Source of the DNA: Verrucomicrobiales bacterium | GTDB taxonomy: Bacteria > Verrucomicrobiota > Verrucomicrobiia > Limisphaerales > UBA9464 | Reading direction: 5' to 3' | Assembly (NCBI GenBank): GCA_027488845.1 | Contig: JAIYBC010000013.1 | Coordinates: 1 to 64,000 of the forward strand | Length of the DNA: 64,000 bases | Shown: positions 14,878-17,512 of the stretch, piece after piece | How positions within the stretch are numbered: position 1 is the stretch's first letter | Layout: each line of letters opens with the position of its first letter | Position numbers and translations under genes: made by a program | The notes under the pieces: model-generated | Told to the model about the DNA's origin: nothing | The model's input: only the letters and a program-made list of their open reading frames with translations | Databases searched by the model: none

Positions 14878-15885
14878 TCACTTGAGCAGTTCCTCGGCGA
14901 TCTGCACCGCGTTCAGGGCCGCGCCCTTGAGCAGTTGGTCGCCGGAAACCCAGAACGCGAGCCCGTTGTCGAGGGCGCAGTCGATCCGGAGCCGGCCGAC
15001 GGTGCAGTTGTCCTGGCCGGAGGTGTCCAACGGCATCGGATAACGCTTGCTGGCGGGGTCGTCGACGACCTCGAGGCCGGGCGCCTTGGAAAGCACCGCG
15101 CGGGCCGCCTCGACGGAGACGGGGCGTTCGAACTCCGCGCTGACCGCCACGGAATGGCTGCGGTAGACCGGCACGCGGACGCAGGTCACGGAGGCGCGGA
15201 GCGACGGATGATGCAGGATCTTGCGGCCCTCGTTCTCCATCTTCATCTCCTCCTTGGTGTAGCCCGTCGGAAGGAAGGAATCGACGTGGGGCAGCACGTT
15301 GAATGCGATCTGGTGGGGATACACCTCGCGGGTCACGGGGTCGCCGCGGACGATCTGGCCGACCTGCTTCTCGAGTTCCTCGAGCGCCTTGGCGCCGGTG
15401 CCGGAGACCGCCTGGTAGCTGGAGGCGAAGAGGCGCTTCACGCCGAAGGCGACATGGAGCGGGTGCAGGGCCATCAGCGTGATGGCGGTGGTGCAGTTCG
15501 GATTGGCGATGATGCCGTTGTGGTTGCGGACGTCCTCGGGATTGATCTCGGGGATCACCAGCGGCACGGACGGATCCATGCGGTAGTGGCTGGAGTTGTC
15601 GACGACCACGGCGCCGGCCTTGACCGCGGACGGGGCGAATTCGCGCGAGATCGAGCCGCCGGCGGAGAACAGCGCGATGTCGACGCCCTGGAAGGAGTCG
15701 TGGGTCAGTTCGGTGACGGCGACCTCGGTCCCGCGGAAGGTCAGTTTCTTGCCGACCGAGCGTGCGGAGGCGAGGAGGGTGAGCTTGCCGACGGGGAAGT
15801 TGCGACGTTCCAACGTGCGGATCATTTCGATGCCGACGGCGCCGGTTGCGCCGACCACGGCCACATGGGGACTGTTCCTGTTCAT
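14878..15885 (-). CDS. asd: Aspartate-semialdehyde dehydrogenase
   Basis: A 335-residue cytoplasmic enzyme that reduces aspartyl phosphate to aspartate semialdehyde with NADPH, the branch point to lysine/diaminopimelate, threonine and methionine. It has the N-terminal Rossmann GATGAVG, the catalytic Cys in NPNCTT, and the later SYQAVSGTGAKAL and YRSHSVAVS segments. ATG 15885 gives the family length; an upstream in-frame extension to 15963 lacks family-like sequence. It is divergent from the UBact gene with about 150 bases between. Confidence 0.96.
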   Translation of the reverse strand: MNRNSPHVAVVGATGAVGIEMIRTLERRNFPVGKLTLLASARSVGKKLTFRGTEVAVTELTHDSFQGVDIALFSAGGSISREFAPSAVKAGAVVVDNSSHYRMDPSVPLVIPEINPEDVRNHNGIIANPNCTTAITLMALHPLHVAFGVKRLFASSYQAVSGTGAKALEELEKQVGQIVRGDPVTREVYPHQIAFNVLPHVDSFLPTGYTKEEMKMENEGRKILHHPSLRASVTCVRVPVYRSHSVAVSAEFERPVSVEAARAVLSKAPGLEVVDDPASKRYPMPLDTSGQDNCTVGRLRIDCALDNGLAFWVSGDQLLKGAALNAVQIAEELLK

Positions 15886-16035
15886 AGGAAGGGGCGCGGA
15901 TATTGGGCAGGTGTCGGGGGCTGTCGAGAGACGAGTTTGGGCTGTCTTCGGGGCCTGGAGCACGACGGAGAGGATTCATTCGCGTTTTCCCCCTGGCCGG
16001 CGTAGGTGTCGTGAAGAAAGAACCTCCGTTCCAAC

Positions 16036-16209
16036 ATGACCGAAAACCAGCAGCAGACACCCCCAGTCTCCCCGTCGGTTCCGCGCGTCGGCGGGATCGG
16101 TCCGGCTTCACCCCGCGTGACGAAGCCCGATGTCGGCGACCTGCTCAAGCGGATGAAGCGGGTCGATCCCGACCAGGCGAAACGCTATCGCCAGCGGACC
16201 GGGGAATGA
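16036..16209 (+). CDS. ubact: UBact, prokaryotic ubiquitin-like (Pup-type) protein modifier
   Basis: A 57-residue protein. Residues 1-30 are a Gln/Pro-rich disordered stretch; residues about 31-49 form a short helix (DVGDLLKRMKRVDPDQ); the tail is AKRYRQRTGE. The C-terminal R-Q-R-T-G-E with a genuine Glu is the UBact hallmark, so it should need no deamidation before ligation to target lysines by a PafA-type ligase. Its TGA overlaps the ATG of the proteasome beta gene (ATGA), which supports both the start choice and the function. The small size and biased composition make it easy to miss. Confidence 0.93.
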   Translation: MTENQQQTPPVSPSVPRVGGIGPASPRVTKPDVGDLLKRMKRVDPDQAKRYRQRTGE

Positions 16210-17006
16210 GTTCCGCCGTCAGTCCCATGGATCCGCGACGCCCGATCGCCGGGGACTTCCTCTCCCTGTTGGCCAGCCACGAGCTGCGGCCTTTCCGGGG
16301 AGAGGTCGCCGGTTCCGCACCCACCGAGACGCAGGCGACCACCGTGCTCGCCTTCCACTTCCGGGACGGGGTGCTGGTGGCGGGCGATCGCCGGGCCACG
16401 GCCGGAAACGTCATCGTGGCCGATTCGGTGGACAAGGTGGTCGATCTGGACGCGACCTCGGTGCTGGCGGTGGCGGGAGTTCCGGCGACGGCCTTCGAGA
16501 TGGCGCGGGTTCTGCAGAACTCGTTCGAGTACTACCGTCGGAGCCAACTGCAGCCGCTCAGCCTCCCGGCGAAGGTCCGGGCGGTCGGCCGCCTTCTGAA
16601 GGAGAACCTGCCGATGACGTTGCAGGGGGTCGGCGTGGTGGTTCCGCTGTTCGTGGCGTTGGACCCCGCGGCGACGCCGCCTGAGCCCCGGATCTTCTTC
16701 TACGACCCGTTGGGGGCACAGTTCCAGGCGGCGGAGTTCGCGGCCAGCGGCAGCGGGGCCGGGGTTGTCCGGAGCCTCATGGCCTTCCAAACCCGGTTCG
16801 GATCGCCCAAGCCCTCCCGGATGTCGCTGGCCGAGGCGGTGCGTTTCGCCCTGCGGATGCTGGTGACGGCGGCCGGGATGGATTCGGCGACGGGCGGCGT
16901 GGATCCGGGCGCGGGCCGTACCGCGACCCTCCGTTGGGTCGGACCGGAGGGGGTGCGGACGATCGGCGAGGAACTCCAGCGAGCGGACCTCTCCGACGCC
17001 GATTGA
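16206..17006 (+). CDS. prcB: 20S proteasome beta subunit
   Basis: The 266-residue precursor has a propeptide of 44 residues and is predicted to self-cleave before Thr45, giving a mature N-terminus TTVLAF. The catalytic set is visible: Thr45 (Thr1), Asp61 in AGDRRAT (Asp17), Lys77 in VDKV (Lys33), and a late MDSATGGVDPG block like that of actinobacterial PrcB. It degrades proteins delivered by an Mpa/ARC-type ATPase after tagging with UBact. It is coupled to UBact by an ATGA overlap. The next gene is convergent, so the transcript carries only these two genes and no alpha subunit is nearby. Confidence 0.94.
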   Translation: MSSAVSPMDPRRPIAGDFLSLLASHELRPFRGEVAGSAPTETQATTVLAFHFRDGVLVAGDRRATAGNVIVADSVDKVVDLDATSVLAVAGVPATAFEMARVLQNSFEYYRRSQLQPLSLPAKVRAVGRLLKENLPMTLQGVGVVVPLFVALDPAATPPEPRIFFYDPLGAQFQAAEFAASGSGAGVVRSLMAFQTRFGSPKPSRMSLAEAVRFALRMLVTAAGMDSATGGVDPGAGRTATLRWVGPEGVRTIGEELQRADLSDAD

Positions 17007-17014
17007 GCCCGGGA

Positions 17015-17512
17015 TCAGCCGCGGCTCGGACGCCGCCGCGTCGTCGACTTCTGCTGCGTCTTCGGAGCCGGGGGATCCGGTTGGAGGTGGATGGGGATCT
17101 CGAAGGTGGAGGACACACCGCCGGAAGGGGTGCGCACCTCGGCCCGGAATCCGTAGGAACCGGGGGGGAAATTCGTCAGTGCGATGACGAATCGCCCGTC
17201 CGGCAGGAGGGGACGTTCGGTGAGGCGACGTTCGGGATTGGGGATCTGGCGGAGCCAGACGGTCACGGTGCCACCCGGTTGTCCCCGACCTTCCAGCACA
17301 CCGAATTGCCTCGCCGGGATGGAGGAGTTCGGTGCCGGCGAATTCCAAGCGGTCGGCACCATGGCTGGCGGAGCAGGAGGAGGCTGCGGCTTCCGCGGCC
17401 CGGGAACCACCGCCAAGGTGGTCATCACCCCGGCCAGGGCGACCGGGATCAACAGGTGCCAGGCGTCGTAGCCGGCGAGCCAGTAGCGGGGTTTTCCTTC
17501 GGCGTTGAACAT
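17015..17512 (-). CDS. Membrane-anchored protein with a C-terminal Ig-like beta domain, unknown function
   Basis: The 165-residue product has a single hydrophobic segment (residues 18-36, WHLLIPVALAGVMTTLAVV), a Pro-rich linker (residues 38-60), then a beta-rich domain (GQPGGTVTVWLRQ, FPPGSYGFRAEVRTPSGG) resembling an extracytoplasmic Ig-like fold. The C-terminus is basic. No enzymatic motif is seen. It lies 11 bases after the coiled-coil gene on the same strand and is probably co-transcribed with it. It converges on prcB. Confidence 0.68.
   Translation of the reverse strand: MFNAEGKPRYWLAGYDAWHLLIPVALAGVMTTLAVVPGPRKPQPPPAPPAMVPTAWNSPAPNSSIPARQFGVLEGRGQPGGTVTVWLRQIPNPERRLTERPLLPDGRFVIALTNFPPGSYGFRAEVRTPSGGVSSTFEIPIHLQPDPPAPKTQQKSTTRRRPSRG

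Follow-up and report, generated by a model that had tools for sequence, protein, structure and literature searches.

A UBact-prcB gene pair as a probable piece of a UBact-proteasome system dispersed over four loci in a small Verrucomicrobiota clade

The window, the whole stretch of 64,000 nucleotides analysed here, carries a gene for the modifier UBact joined to a gene for a proteasome beta subunit. The question raised by this locus is whether the pair stands alone, as a remnant or as a beta-only particle, or belongs to a larger system encoded elsewhere in the genome. The pair and its neighbours are as follows.

14878..15882, minus strand: left neighbour asd, aspartate-semialdehyde dehydrogenase (PF02774, PF01118)
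16036..16209, plus strand: UBact, prokaryotic ubiquitin-like modifier, 57 aa (PF20513, 6.8e-21; NF033388, 3.3e-20)
16206..17006, plus strand: PrcB, proteasome beta subunit, 266 aa (PF00227, 1.5e-21; TIGR03690, 9.1e-41)
17015..17512, minus strand: right neighbour, convergent, 165 aa (no Pfam family)

A 57-residue UBact with the tail RYRQRTGE, overlapping prcB as ATGA and followed by a convergent gene, had been described in the initial annotation; this was confirmed by the coordinates and by PF20513, NF033388 and PF00227. The UBact gene runs from the ATG at 16036 to a stop codon at 16207-16209, which is overlapped by the prcB ATG (16206-16208), and the two genes are probably translationally coupled. 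Scores of 74.2 bits against PF20513 (cut-off 27.8) and 72.1 bits against NF033388 (cut-off 35) exceeded both cut-offs, and the protein has the G[EQ] C-terminus of a UBact modifier. With Glu as last residue, deamidation should not be needed, by analogy with Pup. The tail RYRQR[TS]G[EQ] was found in 21/21 UBact sequences compared. Of these 21 loci, 12 encode a UBact ending in Gln and 9 one ending in Glu. Both endings occur in the same family, which suggests frequent changes in whether deamidation is required.

PrcB scored 77.3 bits against PF00227, above the Pfam cut-off of 22.4. Its best NCBIfam family was TIGR03690 with 140 bits, yet below the equivalog cut-off of 191.9. A profile of 13 relatives matched the solved bacterial beta chains 2h6j (9.9e-33) and 2jay (2e-27). 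Following 44 preceding residues come Thr45, Asp61 and Lys77, which we take to be the equivalents of catalytic Thr1, Asp17 and Lys33; they had been read as intact and were indeed identical in 22/22 PrcB sequences compared, many of them close relatives. On the left, asd adjoins UBact-PrcB in 4/4 carriers and is also present without the pair in non-carrier congeners. Both flanking genes, asd and the 165-aa gene, are conserved flanks outside the proteasome system. Consensus scans of 15700-17200 gave no sigma-70-like promoter or terminator-like site, and the search for mobile-element footprints around the pair gave short repeats only, none with one copy per side.

The partners were sought in the draft genome of the window (5.39 Mb in 69 contigs, 95.4% complete, 1.8% contamination). 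The window lies on contig C51 (67,995 bases), which extends 4 kb beyond it, and no match to PrcA, Pup-ligase-fold enzymes or ARC/Mpa was obtained on this contig; the observation that prcA, pafA, dop and ARC/Mpa are not nearby therefore holds for all 68 kb. Genome-wide, PF00227 had one match, the prcB of the window, and UBact likewise had one. The genome search proposed in the initial annotation yielded one each of PrcA, PafA, Dop and Mpa/ARC, on three other contigs. Pup_ligase had two matches (491 and 353 bits), located on C25 at 128 kb and on C28 at 70 kb, and the single PrcA gene lies directly upstream of the C28 ligase. The ARC/Mpa-type ATPase was represented by one match, on C32 at 16.7 kb, with 373 bits, below the cut-off of 504.75. 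This protein contains PF17758, PF16450 and PF00004, including the proteasomal-ATPase OB domains, and the ARC profile matched solved Mpa/ARC chains at 4.5e-114 and 5kwa, named as Mpa in the available part of PMC8755798, at 4.6e-112. Two further ATPase-model matches (139 and 138 bits, AAA region only) were rejected as FtsH and a TPR-like AAA protein after their sequence was read by eye.

PrcA of C28 gave no Pfam match up to E 0.1, being missed by PF00227, and scored 39.8 bits against TIGR03691, below the cut-off of 139. A profile of 11 relatives matched solved bacterial alpha chains at 7e-14, and PrcA is, as judged by its sequence, a divergent alpha subunit. The C25 enzyme scored 430 bits as Dop versus 318 as PafA and has the long N-terminal insert; the Dop-loop is given as a mark of Dop in the accessible text of PMC7947786. 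The C28 enzyme is without this insert and stands in the PafA position, next to PrcA. Because its model scores are near equal (Dop 250 bits, slightly above PafA 235), it was typed as PafA by position and by the missing insert. NCBIfam equivalog cut-offs were not reached by PrcA, PrcB, Dop, PafA or Arc.

The genes of the system in this genome thus occupy four loci on four contigs, not one cluster. We propose that the UBact-proteasome system of this genome is very probably complete, present in single copy and split into four pieces, of which the pair in the window is one, and that the usual run of the system, Arc-Dop-UBact-PrcB-PrcA-PafA, is dispersed in one small Verrucomicrobiota clade. Since a complete system appears to be encoded and its cluster is broken into four places, UBact-prcB is best read as part of a known machine whose layout is unusual. 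The basis for this proposal lies in the sequences: every component has a relative encoded, congeners have the same pieces, and purifying selection acts on the larger genes. Two readings had been offered from the window. Dispersal of the remaining genes was borne out (PrcA and PafA on C28, Dop on C25, ARC/Mpa on C32, once each), and a beta-only or otherwise divergent particle was not, except in so far as PrcA is a divergent alpha subunit.

Going by family membership, PafA (C28) would ligate the C-terminal Glu of UBact to lysines and Dop (C25) would take UBact off again, while the ARC/Mpa-type ring (C32) would bind tagged proteins and thread them into a 20S core that PrcA (C28) and PrcB (window) would form. 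Alpha and beta would be transcribed apart and hence matched in trans. When the 250 bp before the four units were compared, using a guessed start for Arc, 9-mers were common to two units at most and none to three or four.

Five families were searched in the same 59 related genomes. UBact was found over the cut-off in 17 genomes. Relaxing the threshold to E 0.01 brought the total to 18, the additional genome, like a second UBact match in G051, scoring below the cut-off. The Pup-ligase fold was present in 19 of the 59: the 17 UBact genomes, G050, in which prcB stands at a contig end and no UBact was found, and G028, with a cluster of another kind. Within the genus of the window the system occurs in 4/19 genomes, and the five family searches gave no match in the other 15, eight of which are at least 90% complete.

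Outside the genus there are 14 carriers. The full run Arc-Dop-UBact-PrcB-PrcA-PafA was found in five (G019, G026, G047, G048 and G053), and in G032 and G051 it is interrupted by contig ends only. Arc is placed after PafA in G027 and on another contig in G056. Arc-Dop is separate from the remaining genes in G040, G055 and G050, with PafA following PrcA in the first two, and PafA is separate in G021 and G038. Single breaks in gene order are common; as they occur in 6/14 of these carriers, one cluster is taken to be usual and not essential. PrcB and PrcA are adjacent in all 14, and UBact and PrcB in 17/17 genomes where both were found; the alpha/beta split was seen in the genus of the window only. 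When named genomes were searched with PrcB, eight loci were obtained: four under Verrucomicrobia or Akkermansia titles, one under a Nitrospirae title and three under Armatimonadetes or Chthonomonas titles. The single run was again present in L014, L015, L016 and L018, from Verrucomicrobia, Nitrospirae, Armatimonadetes and Chthonomonas (4/5 such loci); L017 was left out of the family comparison.

The layout in the genus of the window is arc / dop / ubact-prcB / prcA-pafA. All four pieces were found in G013, on four contigs. G012 has arc, dop and ubact-prcB plus a PrcA running off its contig, PafA not being found; in G005 (67% complete) arc, dop and ubact-prcB were found, and PrcA and PafA were not. 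The DNA around the pieces that is common to carriers is 83-97% identical, except for one 0.6-kb piece at 67%. Around Dop the left side is common to all four carriers; the right side agrees between G013 and G012 only, G000 and G005 each differing. Comparison of the flanks with 12 stretches from other genera gave, outside the system genes, weak flank-ORF matches only (27-41%, 120-260 aa); the two nearest Arc were a two-component kinase and a regulator, a common kind.

The larger genes are under purifying selection. Pairwise dN/dS among carriers was 0.03-0.08 for PrcB (6 pairs), 0.24 for PrcA (1 pair), 0.15 for PafA (1 pair), 0.12-0.20 for Dop (6 pairs) and 0.09-0.12 for Arc (3 pairs, G005 left out), with 0.04-0.09 for asd as comparison. 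For UBact the values ranged from 0.08 to 0.70 (6 pairs), with too few changes to judge selection.

These results bear on three other explanations of the locus. Were the pair a beta-only particle, HslV- or Anbu-like, with UBact an unrelated leftover and alpha subunit, ligase and ATPase missing, the lack of any other system gene on C51, the weak matches of PrcB to HslV models (27.8 and 21.2 bits) and the lack of a Pfam match for PrcA would all be accounted for. This is nevertheless extremely improbable: the genome has a PrcA gene, next to that of PafA, whose product matches solved alpha subunits, it also encodes Dop, PafA and ARC, and the score of PrcB as a bacterial beta subunit is far above its HslV scores. 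No Anbu model was among the NCBIfam matches of PrcB. Hardly more can be said for the view that a full cluster survives elsewhere and that the pair is a duplicated fragment or decaying remnant of it. Partial loss would leave such a two-gene stub, but UBact and PrcB are each single in the genome, no second copy of either being found, the catalytic residues of PrcB are intact, and its dN/dS over six pairs supports the earlier view that the locus is not decayed.

A binning or assembly artefact, with partner contigs from another organism or a real cluster broken by misassembly, is to be considered for a draft of this kind, the congeners being drafts too. Arc and PafA lie 3 kb and 9 kb from an end of their contigs, and those two could therefore lie closer together than the draft shows. 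Against an artefact, the pieces recur in congeners with matching surrounding DNA, and UBact-PrcB (16 kb and 51 kb from the ends of C51) and Dop (with about 128 kb of its contig on one side and 162 kb on the other) are well inside their contigs, which makes this explanation very unlikely.

How the dispersed system arose is a matter of history only, compatible with the proposal of four pieces of one system. Dispersal may have been ancestral for the genus, with all four loci lost from the 15 non-carriers, or the carriers may have moved pieces into empty sites; the former is given somewhat less than an even chance. It draws on related systems in G027 and G021 of the same family, and on a rough two-gene marker tree of 18 genomes in which the three included carriers form one clade beside two non-carriers (SH-aLRT 87); loss somewhere is therefore likely. 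The tree left out G003 and G004, in which asd had no match, G015, whose asd is truncated and gave no locus, and G005, which gave no fabD locus. Ancestral dispersal would, on the other hand, require several clean deletions, and no UBact/PrcB remnant was seen at the asd site of non-carriers.

An asd locus was available from 12 non-carrier congeners, G003, G004 and G015 being left out of this count for the same reasons. The left neighbour of asd is kept in 10/12. A homologue of the right-hand neighbour of the pair (17015-17512) adjoins asd in 7/12, with no UBact/PrcB match between; of the other five, two (G002 and G007) have a locus truncated at a contig end, and three (G011, G017 and G008) are without the right neighbour within 1.5 kb. 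In longer stretches of 6 of the 12 the arrangement was confirmed for five, asd of G007 having other neighbours on that side. None of 14 asd loci from outside the genus has the same neighbours within flanks of at most 1.5 kb. At the Arc site, fabD and the next small gene stand together without Arc in 6/8 non-carrier congeners, and no further gene of the Arc side of G000 was matched in non-carrier congeners. At E 1e-50, 14/15 non-carriers gave no match to the protein encoded on the right of PafA; at E 1e-60, no match to the gene on the right of Dop was obtained in any of the other 18 genomes of the genus.

In a quick five-protein tree, from which G028 was left out, the genus of the window joins G027 and G021 of its own family (SH-aLRT 99). 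Its stem measures 0.81 changes per column versus 0.34 and 0.42 for G027 and G021, the program warning of unusual composition in this genus. Identity to seven outside references is below that of G027 and G021 for 5/6 proteins and nearly equal for PafA; for asd, too, the genus is slightly below G021. Faster evolution as a result of dispersal was considered and is not supported: genus g2, of the same family and with an unbroken run, is at a similar or greater distance from the outside references in PrcB, PrcA and PafA, so the faster change is not tied to the break-up. The proteins of g2 join G053 of another family (support 100). Those of G019, G026 and G032 group with G053 (100), although from different families. 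Such grouping suggests transfer of the operon within the order.

The closest known counterpart is the UBact-proteasome system of Gram-negative bacteria, reportedly described by Lehmann et al. in 2017 (BBRC 483:946; Pfam PF20513). Both have the same six components and the same modifier tail, RYRQR[TS]G[EQ]; unlike there, the genes here are in four places, and prcB is separated from prcA. What is new is the layout, the system itself being a known one. The actinobacterial Pup-proteasome has the same Dop-tag-PrcB-PrcA-PafA logic, PrcA/PrcB core and OB-domain ATPase (PMC3511204, PMC8223512, both in excerpt); here, in contrast, the modifier is UBact and the ATPase tail is aliphatic, not GQYL. Its gene order is called rigidly conserved in the excerpted text of PMC3511204, which allows for unrelated genes before pafA and a separate nearby mpa operon, and this order is broken here. 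Iyer et al. (2008; PMC2588565, as excerpted) reported sporadic Pup neighbourhoods outside Actinobacteria, Verrucomicrobia included, with the Pup gene invariably adjacent to a PafA-family gene. The present system shares the occurrence outside Actinobacteria and differs in that both enzymes are away from the tag. To the excerpted statements on rigid order (PMC3511204) and invariable tag-PafA adjacency (PMC2588565), this clade, which belongs to the related UBact branch, offers a counter-example found in nature. Its divergent alpha and beta subunits agree with the Gram-negative proteasome subcluster of Fuchs et al. (2017; PMC5666114, in part), comprising divergent subunits in Armatimonadetes, Nitrospirae and Verrucomicrobia. 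After the break-up, in which even the alpha and beta subunits of a single particle were parted, every component is still present and the larger genes remain under selection. Where a draft shows 'orphan' proteasome or UBact genes, the whole genome should be searched, and with sensitive models for PrcA, because the alpha subunit found here escapes Pfam. Unlike the HslV/Anbu single-subunit proteases, the system has an alpha subunit, PrcA, and its best match is not HslV.

Lys49 of PrcA is kept in 21/21 sequences and aligns with a lysine of the solved bacterial alpha chain 1q5q, presumably the one that binds activator tails. The available text of PMC12288473 places such an alpha-subunit lysine in nearly all alpha subunits. 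In mycobacteria a GQYL tail docks Mpa on the core (PMC8755798, PMC8223512, in excerpt). Arc of the window's genome ends in ...SVV and this motif is absent, so that of the interface residues raised in the initial annotation the alpha-subunit lysine was found and the docking tail was not. Among 22 ATPases of UBact-type loci (e.g. L004, 1360-3012) the final residue is Val/Ile in 21 and the penultimate one Val/Ile in 20, with a penultimate aromatic residue in none; the 22 are not independent, including four near-copies from the window's genus and one 60-residue fragment (G032), and G028 was left out. Exceptions are a final Glu in Nitrospirae L015 and a penultimate Ala in G026 and Thr in G053. ATPases of proteasome-less Actinobacteria are reported to be without the GQYL tail (PMC3511204, in excerpt); here, in contrast, the tail is lacking in spite of the presence of proteasome genes. 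No report of an aliphatic ATPase tail was found in the literature searched, which did not include the original UBact paper. The tail raises the question how non-actinobacterial proteasomes are opened and, with the kept alpha-pocket lysine, may interest specialists more than the layout. A further-reaching reading has two parts: that UBact-branch ATPases swapped the Tyr-containing Mpa/ARC docking tail for a two-aliphatic C-terminus acting on the kept lysine, with different docking or gate opening, and that the system was released from its cluster in this genus, the tag tied to beta and alpha to the ligase, which would allow independent control of tag supply, core assembly and unfoldase supply. 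Taken as a whole, this reading is doubtful.

A cluster of another kind was observed in G028, a genome of the same family without a UBact or PF00227 match (L228, contig C62, 7799-17198). It encodes a 90-aa protein weakly like ThiS/SAMP1 (E 0.05 and 0.006), a protein whose JAB score of 24.6 bits falls just short of the cut-off of 25, an ARC/Mpa-like ATPase (315 bits), an M50 peptidase and two Pup-ligase-fold proteins, one with TPR repeats. Between the latter two lies a 66-aa ORF ending in SGGQ that matches no family. The cluster is perhaps a hybrid of ubiquitin-like and Pup-like conjugation.
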